A DNA stretch of 21,379 bases from a virus. Position 1 is the first letter of the stretch. Each line of letters begins with the position of its first letter. Below are positions 3,322 to 17,155 of the stretch, one piece after another. The notes under the pieces are model-generated. The model saw only the letters and a program-made list of their open reading frames with translations. It was not told the origin of the DNA and did not search any database. The stretch covers positions 1-21,379 of the IMG/VR virus record IMGVR_UViG_3300030389_000858; one strand, given 5' to 3'. Position numbers and translations under genes: made by a program.

Positions 3322-4688
3322 TGCTGGGTGGTCTTATTAAAGGTATTGGTGGTGTTTTTGGTCTTGAGAGCGAAGCTGAAATAGCGGGATTTAAAAAGGG
3401 TTTATTTGGAAGCATCGGCAAAGGCGTTGAAAAAAGCATTGACAGGTACGCAGAGCGTGTGGACCGTATTGCCGATTATCAGCTTCGCAAACGTGTAGCG
3501 GAAGAGGAGCGATTTACAACTGAGTATCAAGAAAATGTTAAAAAGCTTCGTTACATGAAAGGCCGAATGGGGGATGCCGGTGTTGAAGGCTTGGCATTCC
3601 TTGTATCAAAGTATGGCATTGATGGTGCTGAAAAAGAAGTTGATACGTTGCGTACTCTTGCTGATCGTACTGGTCGTAGCACAACCTCCCTGCTTGGCAT
3701 GGAGCGGAATGAAAACTTTGGCATGAGCGTAAGTGATTTGGCAAAAATTTCTACACGTCCCGTCACAGATTATTCCGATCTTGGTGAAGGCATTGAAGCA
3801 CCAGGTATTGTTGGATTGTTTGGTGGTGACGTACAGCGTGATGTTGCCCGTCAGTATGATCGCGGTATCGCTGAACTAAACATTACCACAGACACAGACA
3901 GTGTAGAGTTTGAAAACTTACCAACTGCGACAGGTATTTCTTCTATTGACCGAGGTATGCTGTCCAGTCCAAAAGTAGAGGCTGGTCGTCTTCGTATGAT
4001 TGGTCACGACTATCTTGAAGAAGCACAAGAAATGCTAAAAAATGCGGGTAGTAACGCGGAAGCACAGGCGGCAGCAGAAGCTAAAAAGCAGGAGGGTCTT
4101 GCTCTCATTAAACGTGGCAATGACATGGCTGAAATCTTTGACACGGACAACAGTCAGAACATGACAACAGCAGGTACACGTGCAGCCGCCACAGACTTTA
4201 AGACACAAATTAACGATGCTTTTGGCTTGGGTGGGGTTTATCAAGACGGTATTGTTGTAACTGGCAATATGAATCAAAAAGATTTTGCAAAGCTAAATAT
4301 CCTTGGTTCAAAGCTTGCTAGAATTCAAGATGATGCTGTTCGCTCTAAAAACTATACAGCATCAGAGGCATATGCTACCATTTCTGAAGCTATCGCAACC
4401 AATAAAAGTGTTGAATTTGACGTGGAAACAGGACAAATTATTGTGGGTTCTGCGGGATCACTCGCGATATTTTCAGCGCAAGAAAAACGAGAAGAAATGG
4501 AGATTGCTCAAACAATTGCTACAGAAGATAGCACAGTTGATCAAATTGTTCTTAGAGTTCAAAACGAAAATAATCAAGCAAATAGATCAGCCGATATAGC
4601 TCTCCTTGTAGAGAAACTTATAAAAGAAAAAAGTATGTCCAGAGCTAACGCTTTGGAAGAGGCTAAACGGCTGATTGAAGGTCAATAG
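3321..4688 (+). CDS. Putative internal virion protein
   Basis: A 455-residue, mostly helical, charged protein. It opens with a glycine-rich hydrophobic N terminus (about residues 1-35, MLGGLIKGIGGVFG) and then a long Lys/Arg/Glu-rich helix (about 36-85). The rest alternates short polar segments with Ala-rich helices, for example around residues 240-270, with no catalytic motif that I recognise. The ATG overlaps the preceding stop as TAATG, with a strong GGAGG at 3311-3315 setting the start. Its stop precedes the next ATG by one base. Its place between other virion genes and the large ejection-like protein suggests a component of the internal core or tail. The glycine-rich N terminus could interact with membranes; this is inference. 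Confidence 0.7.
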   Translation: MLGGLIKGIGGVFGLESEAEIAGFKKGLFGSIGKGVEKSIDRYAERVDRIADYQLRKRVAEEERFTTEYQENVKKLRYMKGRMGDAGVEGLAFLVSKYGIDGAEKEVDTLRTLADRTGRSTTSLLGMERNENFGMSVSDLAKISTRPVTDYSDLGEGIEAPGIVGLFGGDVQRDVARQYDRGIAELNITTDTDSVEFENLPTATGISSIDRGMLSSPKVEAGRLRMIGHDYLEEAQEMLKNAGSNAEAQAAAEAKKQEGLALIKRGNDMAEIFDTDNSQNMTTAGTRAAATDFKTQINDAFGLGGVYQDGIVVTGNMNQKDFAKLNILGSKLARIQDDAVRSKNYTASEAYATISEAIATNKSVEFDVETGQIIVGSAGSLAIFSAQEKREEMEIAQTIATEDSTVDQIVLRVQNENNQANRSADIALLVEKLIKEKSMSRANALEEAKRLIEGQ

Positions 4689-4689
4689 T

Positions 4690-7600
4690 ATGTTGTACAA
4701 CGAAGATAAAGAAAACCTCAACAAAGAAAAATTGTTAGAGGATAATTTATTTATTGATGATGCACGCCGTTTTTTAGCTGCAAGAAAGGGTGCAGAGGTA
4801 GAAGACCTTATTGATCGTGAAGATGTATATGATCAATTTATGTCACATTTCCGTAGTCAAAATGTAAATGAAGCTACAGCCATACGTGACATGATCCATG
4901 CACAGAATGCCGACGACGAAGACAAACAACGCATGGGTCGTTTGATGGACGCCTTTGACCACATGGACAGCGACTTCGGTGGCAAAGCTATTGGAGACTA
5001 CGCTGCTGGTATCTTTACAGCCCCTTCCACATATGCAGGTATGCTGACATTTGGTGCCGGTAAGGCCGGTGCTGTGGCTGCTAATCAGGGCATTAAAATA
5101 GGCTTGCGTCAAGTGCTGAAAGAAGCAATGGTAAAGTCTGCCAAAGATCGTGGTGCAAAGACTGTAACAGTAGCTGGGATCAAAGGCTCTGGCAAAAAGC
5201 AAGTCATTGCAGATGGTGTTATTCAACGTGCAACGATGGCACAGCGCGCAAAGGCGGCTTCAAATACCGCGCTAATGCAGGGTGGTATTCGTGCTGGTTT
5301 AGGTGCAGCCGCAGTGGAAGGAATAGTTGGTGGTGGTGCCGTTCTTGCCCAAGAAGAAACCCGTAAAGAGACTAATATTAAAGAGGGTGTTGACCTTGGT
5401 AATGTTGTAATAGGTGCAGCAGCAGGTGCCATCCCAGGTGGATTGCTTGGCACAGTGGCCGGTACAAAAAAGTTTAGCACCCACTACGAGGCTACGAAAG
5501 AGCTTATTAAATCTCGTAACAAAATGATGAAGGGTGTTGAAGACGTATATAATAAAGCTACAGTAAATGTTCTCAAGGGCAAAGGAAAAAATGGCAAGCT
5601 AAAGAAAGCTGCTGCACAAAAGTATGTAGACCTTCTTTCCCTTGAAGAGACAATACCGGAGCAACTAAAGCGTGGTCGCATCAGAAAAAAAGCCCTTGTA
5701 GAAACTGATGCAGAGACACTAGCCACGTTTGATGAAAAAGTGCGTCACAATATTGCTGCAGCTGCGGCTGAAATTGTAGCCATAGTGCCACCCCGCTCTG
5801 CTACTATTAAAGCCGGTAGCAAAGAAGACCTCCAAGAACGCTTTTCCTCTCGTCTTGTTAGGGGTATGACAGACCCAAATATTCTTTCTGAAGACAAACT
5901 AATTGAAATTGTTAATAAGTATGGCGTCAGTCAAGAAGACTTAGCCGCTGTCGGCTTCGCTGATGGCGCTGGGGAACTTGTTGCCGAAGGCGTATCTGAA
6001 GCCGGTAAACTTTTGGGTTCGTTTGGTCTTGCAGCCCAAAAGCGTAACAGGGCTTTATTTAAAGCAATGGACGAACTTGATCAGTCGTTAAAAAAAGACG
6101 GTGAATACAAAAGCTCTATTGCACTTCAAGAAATGAAAAAGAAGACAGGGACGCTTACGGCTGGCAGTAATCAGCAAAGCTTTTTGAGCCAACTTACCAG
6201 CGCCCGTGTAGGCTTAATGACTGTTAACGTAGCCACCACAGTTCGTAACACAACGAGTGGTTTCTTGCGTAATTATATGTACGCGCTTGACAATCTTGGC
6301 TCCGGTGTGTCTAACATAGTTCTTGCAAAAACCGGATTCGGTGAGCGCATGACTAAAAAAGCAGTTGCGGACATAACAGATGAGCAATTGAAAGAAGAAG
6401 CAGAACGCGCCGTCAAACTTGGCACTGCACAACTACGTGTCGGATTTCAATCCTTGTTTCTTAAAGACTTGTTCTTTTTGTCGCAATCCAAAGACGCGCT
6501 GATCTTGCGCGAACTTATGACAGACGATGTATTTGGTAAGAGTGATATTGGCCGCAAGCTATTCCGTGATTTGGGAGACATGGGAGAGCATCTAAATTCA
6601 GAGAGTGGCTTGTTAAGAATGGCACGTGTCGGAAACTTCCTCAATAAAATGAGTGACGACATGTTTAAGAATGCCATTTTTGCAAGAGAGTTGGAAAAAG
6701 AATTAGCCGTCAGTTCTCTTGGGGTACAAAAAGGAACACTAAAAGAAACGGTAGGTCTAGGCATTCCTGCTGGGCAAATCGCTAATCCTAACTTACGCAA
6801 CATGATTGAGCAAGACAAGTTTGCGTCTGTGCCTGACGAAATGATTGGCCGTGCCATGCAAAAGGCTTTGTCATTTACATATCAAAGAGGCGATTGGGAC
6901 CGTTCAACACTGTGGGGTAGCCTCGCTAACACAGTAATTAAGTTTGGTCAAAGCCCTCTTGGTAGTCTTGTTATTCCCTTCCCGAAGTATATGGTAAACC
7001 AGTTCAAGACTGCGTATGAGTACGCGCCTATTTTGGGTATGGCCGATTTTGGCACGGGAATCCTAGATAAAGCGGACGTGAGTTCAACAGTTATCAACCG
7101 TGCTGCCGAAAAGATGGGCAAGCAAATGGCAGGACTTTCTACACTGGGCGCTTTTGTGATGGCCCGTAATCAATTTGGCGATGAAAAGACAGAGGCGTTT
7201 GAGTACAACGATCCAACAAGTGGACAGATTGTAAACGCAGAAGCAGCTATTGGTCCTTTCTCTGTATTTGCTTTAGTTGCAGATATACTGTATAAGACAA
7301 AAAATGATATTCCCTTAGATGGCTCTGTCCGAAATATTGCAAAGGCGCTTACAGGTGGTCAATTCCGACCTAATACTGGCCTAGATTCTCTTGATCGCAT
7401 GGTCGCAACTATTGGCGCAGAGGATATGGGCGATATGGAAAAAGCAAAGCGCACTGTTGCAGAAGCGGCAGGTAACTTTATGAACGGATTCCTTGTCGGT
7501 GCTGGTATGCTCAAGGACGTAATGGCCACCATTGATCCTGATTATCGTATCATCCCTAACAACGAGCGTGTCAACGCCTTTGACCACATGATTAGCGTAG

Positions 7601-8190
7601 GACTGAAGTCTCTGCCACAGGAGATTCGTGAAGACGAAGAGCGTCGTCAGAGTCCTACTAAATCAAACGGTCTGCGCTACGCATCTCCCATACTTCGCCA
7701 AGTCACAGGGTTCTCATTCAGAGAGGCAAACAATGTGGCAGAGAATGAGTTCGATAGGCTTCGCATTCCCTATCGGAAGATTTCTCCGACCGAAATTAAG
7801 TTTGATCCAGAACTGAGCAACGAAGCGAGAGGTATCATGGGCCAGTTTGTGACCCGTGAGATTGCCCGTTTTATTAATAGCCCCGACTATCAGTCACGGA
7901 AAACAGACGAAGAAAAAAGATATCTGCTACAAAGGGAGTTAAATTACTTCAGGGCAGAAGCAAACAATAGAGTTCTTGATCAAAACAAGTATTTAGAAAA
8001 GGATGATATTGAGCGAATCTCAAAAGCTCTGTTCTTTAAGCTTGGCAAAGAAGAGCGCAAGTACGCAATATCTTTGTATGAACAAACTACAGGTAGCCGA
8101 CTAGTAGACACTGAAGACTATCAACAGGCTCTTGCAATTCTTCAGGATAGAAAAAAAAGGGACCGTGCTGCTGCGCGGCCCCGTCGTTAG
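4690..8190 (+). CDS. Giant internal virion / DNA-ejection-type protein
   Basis: A 1166-residue protein, the last + strand gene. I chose the ATG at 4690 because AAGG at 4678-4681 sits eight bases upstream and it follows the previous stop by one base; the longest open frame would use a TTG at 4675. Several Gly/Ala-rich hydrophobic stretches (about residues 100-139, 193-223 and 239-258) alternate with charged helices. Aromatic, partly hydrophobic segments lie near residues 511-539 and 763-791. The C terminus is strongly basic (RKKRDRAAARPRR). Size, position and membrane-active-looking segments fit the ejection proteins of short-tailed phages (the role of T7 gp14-16). I see no lytic transglycosylase or polymerase motif, so an enzymatic domain cannot be claimed. 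The last codons contain the terminator of the opposing transcript. Confidence 0.75.
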   Translation: MLYNEDKENLNKEKLLEDNLFIDDARRFLAARKGAEVEDLIDREDVYDQFMSHFRSQNVNEATAIRDMIHAQNADDEDKQRMGRLMDAFDHMDSDFGGKAIGDYAAGIFTAPSTYAGMLTFGAGKAGAVAANQGIKIGLRQVLKEAMVKSAKDRGAKTVTVAGIKGSGKKQVIADGVIQRATMAQRAKAASNTALMQGGIRAGLGAAAVEGIVGGGAVLAQEETRKETNIKEGVDLGNVVIGAAAGAIPGGLLGTVAGTKKFSTHYEATKELIKSRNKMMKGVEDVYNKATVNVLKGKGKNGKLKKAAAQKYVDLLSLEETIPEQLKRGRIRKKALVETDAETLATFDEKVRHNIAAAAAEIVAIVPPRSATIKAGSKEDLQERFSSRLVRGMTDPNILSEDKLIEIVNKYGVSQEDLAAVGFADGAGELVAEGVSEAGKLLGSFGLAAQKRNRALFKAMDELDQSLKKDGEYKSSIALQEMKKKTGTLTAGSNQQSFLSQLTSARVGLMTVNVATTVRNTTSGFLRNYMYALDNLGSGVSNIVLAKTGFGERMTKKAVADITDEQLKEEAERAVKLGTAQLRVGFQSLFLKDLFFLSQSKDALILRELMTDDVFGKSDIGRKLFRDLGDMGEHLNSESGLLRMARVGNFLNKMSDDMFKNAIFARELEKELAVSSLGVQKGTLKETVGLGIPAGQIANPNLRNMIEQDKFASVPDEMIGRAMQKALSFTYQRGDWDRSTLWGSLANTVIKFGQSPLGSLVIPFPKYMVNQFKTAYEYAPILGMADFGTGILDKADVSSTVINRAAEKMGKQMAGLSTLGAFVMARNQFGDEKTEAFEYNDPTSGQIVNAEAAIGPFSVFALVADILYKTKNDIPLDGSVRNIAKALTGGQFRPNTGLDSLDRMVATIGAEDMGDMEKAKRTVAEAAGNFMNGFLVGAGMLKDVMATIDPDYRIIPNNERVNAFDHMISVGLKSLPQEIREDEERRQSPTKSNGLRYASPILRQVTGFSFREANNVAENEFDRLRIPYRKISPTEIKFDPELSNEARGIMGQFVTREIARFINSPDYQSRKTDEEKRYLLQRELNYFRAEANNRVLDQNKYLEKDDIERISKALFFKLGKEERKYAISLYEQTTGSRLVDTEDYQQALAILQDRKKRDRAAARPRR
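8151..8182 (-). terminator. Intrinsic terminator of the - strand block
   Basis: On the - strand, GGGGCCG (8182-8176) pairs with CGGTCCC (8165-8159) around a ten-base loop, giving seven pairs including one G-U, followed directly by eight T (8158-8151). On the + strand the same hairpin has an A-C mismatch and no T-tract, so it should act only on - strand transcripts. It lies inside the last codons of the + strand ejection-type gene. Confidence 0.8.
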
Positions 8191-8199
8191 CGCATACAA

Positions 8200-8391
8200 C
8201 TAAGAAGTTTTAAGATTTTCCACATATGCCTGATTCCAGCCACGCTGCCATTCTTTGGCAGACGTGGTATTTTTTCGCATAGGGTTTGCTACCTGGTGGT
8301 AGCACACACCAAAGCGTTTACTTTTTTTCTCTTCAACGCGAGAAAACGCCTCGTATCCACGACGAAAATCGTCTGCTAGTCTTTGGTTCAT
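8200..8391 (-). CDS. Ribosome modulation factor (RMF)-like small protein
   Basis: A 63-residue basic protein. The N-terminal part has RRGYEAF and the C-terminal part has NP, then KEWQRGWNQAYVEN, the pattern seen in the RMF family (RGYQAG and QWLGGWREA in E. coli RMF), with a longer linker between. RMF binds the 30S subunit and promotes inactive ribosome dimers; RMF-like genes occur in phages, where their role is unsettled. GGAG precedes the ATG by seven bases, fixing the start at 8391. The gene is last in the - strand block and overlaps the end of the endonuclease VII gene by 59 bases. Its 3' half also contains the + strand terminator. If it is an RMF, it could modulate host translation late in infection; a different small RNA-binding role is possible. 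Confidence 0.6.
   Translation of the reverse strand: MNQRLADDFRRGYEAFSRVEEKKSKRFGVCYHQVANPMRKNTTSAKEWQRGWNQAYVENLKTS
8240..8275 (+). terminator. Intrinsic terminator of the + strand late block
   Basis: CCACGCTGCCA (8240-8250) pairs with TGGCAGACGTGG (8256-8267) around a TTCTT loop, giving eleven pairs with one bulged A at 8262. It is followed by TATTTTTT (8268-8275). No T-tract follows it on the - strand. It sits 50 bases after the stop of the last + strand gene and inside the coding sequence of the opposing RMF-like gene. Confidence 0.85.
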
Positions 8392-8737
8392 ACTTTTCTC
8401 CTTTCATATATGCTAGTGCTTTTTCTACACTTTCAATATTGTCACCAAGATTTCCCAATCCAAGGTTACAAGGATTGCACAACCAACCCCTAAACACTTT
8501 TGTTTCGTGACAGTGGTCAAAGACTAGCTTGCGCTCTTTACCACAGAGATCACAACACGTGGGTTTTGGAGGGGCATTCTTTTTTAGTTCTGCTACTACT
8601 CTTTCGTGTTCTCGTTGACAAGAGTTGCACGAAGTGTTCCGACTATTTTTATCTCCTGTTGCTCTTCTATACAATCTAAATTCACTAACTGGTTTTGTTA
8701 TATTACAATCTCTACAAGTAATCTCCTCCTCATCCAC
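8333..8737 (-). CDS. Endonuclease VII-type Holliday junction nuclease
   Basis: A 134-residue His-Me (beta-beta-alpha metal) nuclease. A zinc site is formed by C62, C65, C87 and C90, and the catalytic block is DHCH (D74, H75) with N91 after CNPC, matching T4 endonuclease VII (D40, H41, N62). An extra N-terminal zinc ribbon is visible (C8-x2-C11 and C37-x2-C40). The family cuts branched DNA: junctions, forks and mismatches. I chose the GTG at 8737 because AAAGGAGG (8751-8744) then lies six bases upstream; the GTG at 8743 directly abuts it. The last 19 codons overlap the RMF-like gene in another frame and probably form a non-conserved tail. The phage also encodes a T7-type junction nuclease (12568-13047). 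Confidence 0.85.
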   Translation of the reverse strand: MDEEEITCRDCNITKPVSEFRLYRRATGDKNSRNTSCNSCQREHERVVAELKKNAPPKPTCCDLCGKERKLVFDHCHETKVFRGWLCNPCNLGLGNLGDNIESVEKALAYMKGEKYEPKTSRRFSSWIRGVFSR

Positions 8738-8754
8738 TACCACCCTCCTTTCAT

Positions 8755-15017: not shown

Positions 15018-15046
15018 GTTATATCACACAACGTCTTTCGTGTCAA
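15018..15046 (-). promoter_or_regulatory. Sigma70-type promoter at the end of the polymerase gene
   Basis: On the - strand TTGACA (15046-15041) is followed by a 17-base spacer and TATAAC (15023-15018): a perfect -35 and five of six -10 bases at ideal spacing. The -35 lies in the last polymerase codons and the spacer ends with the stop. Transcription would start near 15011, about 28 bases before the ATG of the acidic-tailed gene. Confidence 0.75.
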
Positions 15047-17066
15047 GCCAATTCGGACCCATTTTTGCCTCTAATAGCAGTGGGACATTGAATGTAATGC
15101 CCCACCTGCCAGCTATCAAACCTGGCAAATCGTCATTTGTTTTTTGTATTGCTTGCAACACAAGTCTTTCCTCATGTGGGTGTACGTCAATCACAATACT
15201 ATCATGCACCGTGTTCACAATACAGGACTTAGCATAGGCCAGTTGTCTGTCTATGTGTAGCAGGGCTAGTGGCACAATGTCTGCTGTGGCAAACGACTGC
15301 ACAGGATAGTTCTTGATCTGCGTAAAGTATGATACACGCCCATTCTCCTGTCGTCGTACATCAGGAAAAGAAAACTGACGACCAGAGGGCGTAGTAATTT
15401 TTTGTGTAGTCAACGCCTCTTTCGCAAGTTCTTGATGCCACTTGGCAATACCCTTATATTTCTCCGTGAAGTGCGTATAATACTGCGCCTCCGCTGGAGT
15501 TCTCCCAAACCCAGTTGCCCCATAAAGAGGAGCAAACGTGTGCGCTTTCGCAGTCTGTCGGTCAGTCGGTTGACCAGCTTCTGTGATAATCTTTGCTGTA
15601 TATGAATGAACATCAAACCCATTAGTTACCTCATCAATTGCTACGGAATCTTGCGACAGGAATGCAGCTACACGAAACTCAAGTTGTGCAAAATCTGCTT
15701 CCATAATCTTGCCCCCATCAAAGCGAGACACAAACACTCTCTTGATAGGGAAGGTGCTACCACGTGGCATGTTCTGCATGTTTGGGTCAGCACCAGAAAA
15801 ACGCCCAGTAGATGTTCGATGTTGCAACAGACGCACATGAAGCTTCTCATCAAACTTTTTGTGTAGCTCAATGCCGTCAATAAAAGAGGACAGGTATGTT
15901 TCCACTGCACTCAGACGACTAACCTTTTCCAGAAACTCTGTAGCTTCTTGCATATTTTTCTGTCGGGCTATTCCCTCAAGAACTTTCAGGCTACCCTTAC
16001 TGGTGGAGAAGCCATTGGCTGACACCCACTTCGCACTTGGCGCAGTAAACTTCAGTCCAGCAACTTCCGGTAGTGTCTGATAAACATATCCTGTCCCAGC
16101 GCAATGAGGACACTTGTTGGGTTTAGCATAAGGCTCTCCATTCTTTTTCGTTCGATACACATTACCTGACCCATTGCATTCAGAGCATTTGACGGCTCGT
16201 GTTTTGTAGACTACATCCGTTTGCTTTCGCACAATGTCTTTGAAGTGTGTGTCCTTCATATATTTGTGTGTTGCGTTGGCCCATACATTTTTATCTTTGG
16301 GTTTGCGCGAGTAGATAACCCACGACAGTTGTTCAGGACTATTCAAATTGATGTGCGTGTCACCCATCAAACGATAAGCCATCTGTCGCAGGTCCATCTT
16401 TAATTTGTGCTTTTCTTCTTCATACTCTCGACGCACTTCGTCTAACTCTATCTTGTCAACGCTGAACCCACGCTGATAGATACGAGCGAGGCATACAGCG
16501 ACCTGGTTGGTCAGGTCTACAGTACCCATCAGTCCGGCGTATTCAGGACTATTAAGTTTTGCGTACTGCAGATCAGCAAGTTGCTGCGTAGCCTCAAGGT
16601 CTGCCACAAGATACTCTGTGAGTTCATCAAGAGGAATATCACTAGTTCTATATCCCTTCTTAAAATACTCCTTGAGAGTGTCTTGTTTTTTCGTATCCAA
16701 CTCATGCCTCTCAGCACACGCCTCCAGAGACAGGGGTTGTTTCAACCCACACTGTAGGATGTACTCAACAAGCATCGTATCAAAGACGGGACCATCATAT
16801 TTAAACCCAGATTCCCACAACCACAGCAAGTCGTGCGCTGCGTTATGGCAGATAAGAACAGTAGCCTCATCCAAGAACATCTGTACACGCTCGTGATAAT
16901 CGTGACCTGACAGATGATCCTTGTGATCAAAAGGGAAGGTCTGACAAACGCCTGTGTCTGTCAGTACCCCCACTTGAACTAAAGAGTTCTCAGGCTCAAA
17001 GGGATCAAGGTGGAGTTTACCCTCCCTCTCTGTAGAGTTGTTTTCTACGTCAAGAGTAAGTTTCAT
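15024..17066 (-). CDS. polA: Family A DNA polymerase with DnaJ-like cysteine insert
   Basis: A 680-residue replicative polymerase. The N-terminal 3'-5' exonuclease has D6 and E8 (LDVEN), N75 and D79 (HNAAHD), and Y152/D156. The polymerase part has motif A with D458 (EADFAQLEFR), motif B with K507, F511 and Y515 (TAKAHTFAPLYG) and motif C with D622 (VHDS). F511 corresponds to E. coli Pol I F762. Between the two lies a zinc-binding-like insert with two C-x2-C-x-G-x-G motifs (C294/C297 and C319/C322), as in the middle domain of DnaJ; a partial DnaJ domain in the polymerase is a known trait of phage HMO-2011. I use the ATG at 17066, which shares a base with the stop of a 29-residue peptide (TAATG); the frame extends to 17117 but that overlaps the peptide gene. 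Confidence 0.93.
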   Translation of the reverse strand: MKLTLDVENNSTEREGKLHLDPFEPENSLVQVGVLTDTGVCQTFPFDHKDHLSGHDYHERVQMFLDEATVLICHNAAHDLLWLWESGFKYDGPVFDTMLVEYILQCGLKQPLSLEACAERHELDTKKQDTLKEYFKKGYRTSDIPLDELTEYLVADLEATQQLADLQYAKLNSPEYAGLMGTVDLTNQVAVCLARIYQRGFSVDKIELDEVRREYEEEKHKLKMDLRQMAYRLMGDTHINLNSPEQLSWVIYSRKPKDKNVWANATHKYMKDTHFKDIVRKQTDVVYKTRAVKCSECNGSGNVYRTKKNGEPYAKPNKCPHCAGTGYVYQTLPEVAGLKFTAPSAKWVSANGFSTSKGSLKVLEGIARQKNMQEATEFLEKVSRLSAVETYLSSFIDGIELHKKFDEKLHVRLLQHRTSTGRFSGADPNMQNMPRGSTFPIKRVFVSRFDGGKIMEADFAQLEFRVAAFLSQDSVAIDEVTNGFDVHSYTAKIITEAGQPTDRQTAKAHTFAPLYGATGFGRTPAEAQYYTHFTEKYKGIAKWHQELAKEALTTQKITTPSGRQFSFPDVRRQENGRVSYFTQIKNYPVQSFATADIVPLALLHIDRQLAYAKSCIVNTVHDSIVIDVHPHEERLVLQAIQKTNDDLPGLIAGRWGITFNVPLLLEAKMGPNWLDTKDVV

Positions 17067-17155
17067 TACTTCAGTCCCGTTGCAGTTGTGCCAGCGTCGA
17101 TAATCGCGACAGCCCAAGCAAACTTAATAACAAATGGTGCTACAAGTGCAAGCAT
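17066..17155 (-). CDS. 29-residue hydrophobic peptide upstream of polymerase
   Basis: An ATG at 17155 follows AAAGGAG with six bases between, an excellent ribosome binding site. The product begins MLALVAPFVIKFAWAVAII and ends GTTATGLK, so it is likely a single membrane segment. Its TAA overlaps the polymerase ATG, making it a candidate leader that couples polymerase translation. Polymerase itself has only a weak ribosome binding site, which supports this reading. Confidence 0.6.
   Translation of the reverse strand: MLALVAPFVIKFAWAVAIIDAGTTATGLK

Follow-up and report, generated by a model that had tools for sequence, protein, structure and literature searches.

The 21.4-kb stretch of viral DNA analysed here (referred to as the window, 21,379 nucleotides in full) contains a spacer-less junction between two converging gene blocks. 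This junction very probably carries two one-way predicted terminators, each inside the opposing gene, with the codons at these places serving both the protein and the terminator. On one side this dual use is seen unusually directly, in codons that are frozen when the gene lies at the junction and vary freely when it lies elsewhere.

Genome context and genes at the junction

Judged from its genes and their order, the window covers part of the genome of a marine podovirus of the HMO-2011 type. The ribonucleotide reductase it encodes shares 81% identity with the counterpart in Puniceispirillum phage HMO-2011. It has a B12-dependent RNR, a DNA polymerase and a late block converging on the early one, as do HMO-2011 and the CRP phages. 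The layout is that of HMO-2011-type phages, with an early replication and metabolism block converging on a late structural block (the labels 'early' and 'late' are inferred from gene content), and contigs L089 and L094 show the same kind of gene order. A DNA-level search of the phage collection with the window gave no match, and the protein search returned distant relatives of the late gene only. The late (+ strand) and early (- strand) blocks meet tail-to-tail at 8190/8200. The features around this point are listed below.

4675..8190, + strand: last late gene, 1171 aa; TTG at 4675 opens the ORF, TAG at 8188-8190; the - strand terminator lies within its 3' end
8151..8158, - strand: T8 tract of the early-block terminator (TTTTTTTT); predicted 3' end of the early mRNA
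8159..8182, - strand: hairpin of the early-block terminator, GGGGCCG-CGCAGCAGCA-CGGTCCC, inside the late gene 4675-8190; dG -16 to -17.4
8187..8225, - strand: remnant (12 codons) of a 37-codon membrane-protein ORF; its TAA overlaps the TAG of the late gene
8200..8391, - strand: RMF-like small gene, 63 aa; the + strand terminator lies at the codons for RKNTTSAKEWQRGW
8239..8268, + strand: hairpin of the late-block terminator, CCACG CTGCCA TTCTT TGGCAG A CGTGG, inside the RMF-like gene 8200-8391
8269..8276, + strand: T-tract of the late-block terminator (ATTTTTTC), encoded opposite the Lys-Asn codons AAA AAT
8276..8328, + strand: further terminator-like hairpin (8276-8316) in tandem with the first, T-rich tail TTTACTTTTTTT; shared by the window and L083 only
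8333..8743, - strand: endonuclease VII-like gene of the early block, upstream of the RMF-like gene

Pfam and PHROG profile searches with the last late gene gave no family above cut-off. By tblastn it weakly matches the 'putative internal virion D' of LUZ100 (34.5% over 110 aa, E 6e-7) and shows 24-26% identity to hypothetical proteins of CRP-2 and CRP-13. The RMF-like protein resembles the ribosome modulation factor (RMF, PF04957) in being small and basic and in its W..GW motif, and its match to the Pfam profile is weak (E 0.0018 to 0.012). Its scores all lie at 16.1-18.7 bits (16.1 in the window, 18.7 in the best relative tested) against a gathering cut-off of 27.9 bits; on these scores membership of PF04957 is not established.

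The initial annotation took the RMF-like gene to be the last early gene. In L083, L085/L001 and L004, however, a 37-codon membrane-protein ORF comes after it; in the window that ORF is cut to 12 codons. This ORF ends the early block in L083 (MWKILKLLRWFPIAVICAYILYIMGVAGIHTICDCMR, about 4167-4280) and in L085 (24/37 residues identical, about 4152-4265), overlapping the 3' end of the RMF-like gene, and its stop overlaps the stop of the late gene by 4 nt. The gap of 202 listed for L001/L085 ignores it, the true arrangement being an overlap of 4 nt. In the window, a 75-nt in-frame deletion in the ORF leaves MWKILKLLSCMR.

Two hairpins with one-sided T-tracts

Both sites have the sequence of an intrinsic (Rho-independent) terminator, a stable G+C-rich hairpin followed by a U-tract, and each is located inside the coding sequence of the other unit. 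Their coordinates and anatomy were described correctly in the initial annotation, although the second + strand hairpin (8276-8316) was missing from its list. The late-block hairpin followed by TATTTTTT occupies 8240-8275, with a stem of 11-12 bp containing one bulged A, and its dG is about -18.7 to -20.1 on the + strand and about -17.6 to -18.3 on the opposite, RMF-like sense strand. The early-block hairpin likewise folds equally on both strands (-16.0 on - and -16.5 on +). Among the first eight tail bases, T accounts for 8/8 on the - strand against 3/8 on the + strand at the early-block site, and for 6/8 on + against 2/8 on - at the late-block site. Since the hairpins fold about equally on either strand and the T-tract is present on one side only, each terminator is predicted to be one-way. 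This direction had been anticipated, together with a cause for the - site, namely a G-U pair that becomes an A-C mismatch on the + strand; the pair is indeed there, but the folding energies indicate that the T-tract decides. A hairpin of the bidirectional kind, with T-tracts on both strands, was not found at either site, and no symmetric spacer hairpin is present in the window.

Sites were ranked by an ad hoc score, folding energy minus twice the T-tract score, which is meant for comparative use only. The junction accounts for three of the four terminator-like sites that score best in the window (8159-8182, 8239-8268 and the + strand hairpin 8276-8316), and the early-block site 8159-8182 is the single best. 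The second-best score belongs to a sense-direction hairpin at 16932-16974 (-) in the 697-aa early ORF 15024-17117, which may be due to chance. A stock terminator scan reported neither junction site, because it caps the loop at 8 bases (the - loop has 10) and apparently disallows bulges (the + stem has one), and it was replaced by a fold-based scan.

Frozen codons on the RMF-like side

The RMF-like gene is present at the junction in five contigs of three lineages (group A: the window, L001/L085/L102, L083/L105, L084/L103 and L004) and away from it in five relatives (group B: L096, L097, L098, L099 and L101). Group B has another early gene after the RMF-like gene (MazG in L096/L086, where the RMF-like gene lies upstream of it). 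The junctions of group B themselves have a spacer hairpin in L096, L098 and L099; none was found in that of L097, and the L101 contig ends.

The late-block hairpin is nucleotide-identical in L083, L084, L085/L001 and L004, and the 14 codons (RKNTTSAKEWQRGW) spanning hairpin and T-tract are letter-for-letter identical in 5/5 group A contigs. The identical run around the hairpin covers 8233-8280 against L085 and L004 and 8236-8280 against L084, which is approximately the extent of hairpin and T-tract; against L083, which is more closely related to the window, it covers 8200-8295. Among the window, L084 and L085, all 12/12 degenerate codons for the same residue are invariant in the hairpin region as compared to 8/20 outside, where 12/20 comparable codons vary synonymously (Fisher p 0.0006). 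Group B, by contrast, encodes a nearly identical peptide with 5-9 synonymous differences per pair and the hairpin gone; 8-10 of 11-12 degenerate codons in this region are variable, and the difference in codon variability between the groups has p 7e-5 to 3e-4 (two triplets tested). The T-tract codon is AAA in every group A copy and AAG, which breaks the tract, in every group B copy. Because the hairpin region is frozen at the junction and varies freely elsewhere, a nucleotide-level constraint tied to the position of the RMF-like gene is strongly supported by these comparisons, although the sample is small (five contigs, three lineages) and short gene conversion could also erase synonymous differences.

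The proposal that both coding ends carry a second constraint thus holds for the RMF-like gene, with zero synonymous change in the hairpin region at the junction, and is less supported for the late gene (see below). Regarding the protein, the stem arm TGGCAG corresponds to invariant Trp-Gln codons and the other arm, TCT GCC A, to Ser-Ala, at which position relatives without the hairpin have Ser-Tyr/Phe. It is possible that the RMF-like protein may have yielded a residue to the terminator here.

The frozen 42 nt might instead be a recently exchanged or protein-constrained patch, with the hairpin arising incidentally from the peptide TTSAKEWQRGW. In favour of such a reading are the small size of group A and the peptide itself, one of the best-conserved segments in the family. 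But group B encodes nearly the same peptide without the hairpin, and in group A the flanking codons have diverged on either side, which would require the borders of any exchange to coincide with those of the terminator. Synonymous recoding of the same proteins also speaks against it, as the score is reproduced in 0-3/1000 cases (3/1000 for the best + site of the window, and 0/1000 each for the same + hairpin in L084 and L085). We regard this explanation as improbable. Of the 59 distinct RMF-like genes compared, 23 have a late-strand site scoring -20 or better, where synonymous recoding predicts 1.45, and 14 have one at -24, where it predicts 0.10, with the codon usage of the window as the null and with the genes mutually related, so that the counts are not independent events. 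These sites are located at or near the same codons in different stem registers. A mobile or repeated terminator element was considered and ruled out, the 24-nt core being found only in four group A contigs besides the window.

A role of the conserved element in the RMF-like mRNA itself, such as -1 frameshifting or an effect on stability or translation, is very improbable. The hairpin does fold on the sense strand (-17.6), and A AAA AAT precedes it in register with a -1 slippery heptamer. However, the heptamer and the hairpin are about 1 nt apart, and the -1 frame meets a stop after a few to about 19 codons, at a position that differs between the window, L084 and L085. RMF-like genes situated elsewhere have lost the hairpin and the A-run with the protein kept, and late-strand sites outnumber sense ones family-wide. 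Frameshifting at the A-run and hairpin was rejected on the 1-nt spacer and on there being no conserved -1 product.

The early-strand terminator and exchange of the late gene

The - strand hairpin is less regular among relatives than its + strand counterpart: the + stem is identical in 5/5 junction contigs, while the - stem is kept in L001 and absent in L083. L001 keeps the pairing despite sequence changes (one G-C has become G-U, a C.A mismatch has become U-A, and the loop is altered). In L103 the late-gene end is unrelated and hosts a replacement, an unrelated 8-bp stem GAGACCTG...CAGGTCTC followed by TTTTCTTT, 63-103 nt before the late stop. In 240 synonymous-codon permutations of the late gene (last 450 nt scanned), the early-strand site of the window was equalled in 0/240; the sites in the unrelated late-gene ends of L103 and L006 gave 0/240 each and that of L001 gave 1/240. 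The site of L004 is weak, being equalled in 37/240, and no early-strand terminator was found in the last 450 nt of the late gene in L083, L011, L060 and L025. In L083 none was detectable in the last 1.9 kb. For the late gene, therefore, the pairing-compatible changes of L001 and the unrelated strong hairpin of L103 favour a second constraint, and the weak site of L004 and the absence in L083 count against it.

An early-strand hairpin inside a late gene was also observed in another lineage, 372-405 nt before the late stop in L006 and L177; it is strong in L006 (GCAGACGTGCCTC...GAGGTGCGTCTG followed by TTTTTATTTT) and weaker in the L177 homologue.

Between L083 and the window, identity is 65% in the last late gene and 93-98% elsewhere, with the break at window position 8197. 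As L083 is near-identical except for this gene and is without the - terminator, the last late gene appears to have been exchanged as a cassette bordered by the junction, with the terminator of the early block travelling with it. In the comparison with L107 the exchanged segment is window 4702-8197, 65% identical between sides that are 93-98% identical, one border being the convergent junction. The early block can apparently do without the - terminator, and its absence in L083 and weakness in L004 suggest that this half is not essential or not conserved.

It is possible, though we find it the less probable reading, that only the + terminator is selected, the - hairpin being an accident or a passenger of the late-gene cassette and the early RNA ending otherwise, through Rho, RNA polymerase collision or other sites. 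The comparison with L083 fits this idea, as does the lack of a family-wide antisense excess in late genes, and head-on RNA polymerase collisions have been reported to be prevalent in termination at convergent genes of E. coli (PMC13082048). However, no other terminator-like site of the window scores as well, none of 240 synonymous permutations equalled it, L001 has retained it through several changes, and L103 and L006 have strong but unrelated - hairpins with T-tracts at comparable positions.

Convergent junctions across the family

Most of the HMO-2011-type family has one symmetric hairpin in a short spacer. With a spacer of at least 22 nt nearly every junction has such a hairpin within a few nt of the late stop, usually AGGGGGCAATTAAGCCCCCT flanked by A and T; with a spacer of 9 nt or less it is found at no junction. 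Among 66 distinct junctions, late-strand sites in the early block outnumber sense-oriented ones by 41 v 13, 25 v 6, 19 v 3 and 11 v 2 at rising stringency, whereas the late genes show no excess of antisense over sense sites (13 v 9, 4 v 4 at score -20, 3 v 1 and 3 v 0). Scores of the K-P-K/N subclass (CCC...GGG stems; L013, L044, L053 etc.) are probably inflated, as the T-tract is interrupted. An asymmetry in G-U orientation across the broader set of RMF-like genes (218 v 177 of 234 pairs, late v early strand) was kept out of the main evidence, since several wobble pairs are forced by amino acids.

A family-wide rule of interlocked terminators at every spacer-less junction was ruled out by L010, L011, L025 and L060: a strong early-strand site was not found in L011, L025 and L060, and a strong late-strand site was not found in L010 and L025. 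These comparisons suggest that intragenic terminators on the late strand are a trait of the family, the two-way interlock being a local, derived variant.

A further late-strand hairpin (AGGCCCAGAGTTAAATACTCTGTGGCCT, with variants having different outer stems) recurs about 310-780 nt past the late stop inside an early gene, which is probably MazG in some of the contigs (L029, L040, L044, L046, L060, L062, L069, L072 and L115). With its compensating stem changes it looks like a second family of intragenic antisense terminators.

A model for termination at the junction

We infer the course of transcription from the positions of the predicted sites. Late RNA polymerase would pass the stop at 8190 and terminate about 50-85 nt further on, inside the RMF-like gene (8239-8276), and early RNA polymerase would stop at its own intrinsic terminator in the last 40 nt of the late gene (8182-8151). 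The two mRNAs would then overlap antisense by about 120-125 nt, in agreement with the initial estimate. Such placement would allow the genes to abut and would put the late terminator beyond the reach of the ribosome trailing RNA polymerase, the price being dual-use codons for protein and terminator. According to Li et al. (PMC4824070), the ribosome moving behind RNA polymerase represses tR2 almost fully when a stop codon is near, and termination is near-maximal at distances above 30 bp. In the window, the distance from the late stop codon to the start of the late terminator is 48 nt. With no spacer left and with ribosome repression near stops, an efficient late terminator would therefore have to lie in the opposing gene. 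The - hairpin, at 17 nt from the RMF-like stop and, in relatives, at 4-5 nt from that of the membrane ORF, fits this logic less well, and the model predicts reduced efficiency at these distances. Late RNA would likewise leak through the usual spacer hairpin, which is 4-10 nt from the late stop, and this could explain the intragenic late-strand back-ups in other members of the family.

Extended to the HMO-2011-type family, this leads to a proposal that we hold to be about as probable as its opposite. One-way late-strand terminators, lying antisense in the last early genes (RMF-like, MazG and neighbours) and using varied stem registers on the same conserved codons, would act as firebreaks that back up a spacer hairpin partly disabled by the trailing ribosome and replace it entirely in the clade of the window.

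Relation to known systems

A bidirectional intrinsic terminator is present between tonB and the opposing gene in E. coli, and overlapping bidirectional terminators have reportedly been described by Ju and colleagues in 2019. Bidirectional terminators between convergent genes are also known in phages such as phage tf (PMC3517423). The tonB and tf cases are similar to ours in that intrinsic terminators stop two converging units at one junction, and most HMO-2011-type relatives have exactly such a structure, e.g. AAAAAGAGGGGGCAATTAAGCCCCCTTTTTTT in HMO-2011. They differ in having one shared A-stem-T hairpin in the spacer, whereas the window has two one-way hairpins, each in the coding sequence of the other gene. 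Termination sites inside neighbouring coding sequences are already known in bacteria (PMC7154746), and in E. coli RNA polymerase collision is an established aid to termination between convergent genes (PMC13082048). Convergent pairs with overlapping 3' UTRs, including those of the excludon type, are reviewed in PMC7154746. In the excludon the paired RNAs additionally repress each other or are processed by RNase III, whereas the overlap predicted in the window is short and seems to result from compactness. Terminators and convergence are not mentioned in the main comparative study of HMO-2011-type phages (PMC9038755). What appears to be new here is the replacement of one symmetric terminator by two interlocked one-way ones; on one side, the evidence for dual coding is unusually direct.

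The junction shows, as a clean natural experiment, where transcription stops are placed in compact viral genomes that have no spacer left, since the codons for a conserved, nearly unchanged peptide contain a hidden predicted terminator or not, depending on the position of the gene. It also offers a test of terminator position relative to stop codons against genome layout, and it is a warning that synonymous sites at convergent junctions are not neutral. HMO-2011-type phages are among the most abundant marine phage groups. If the firebreak role is true, late transcription in these phages would be kept from running into the early block.
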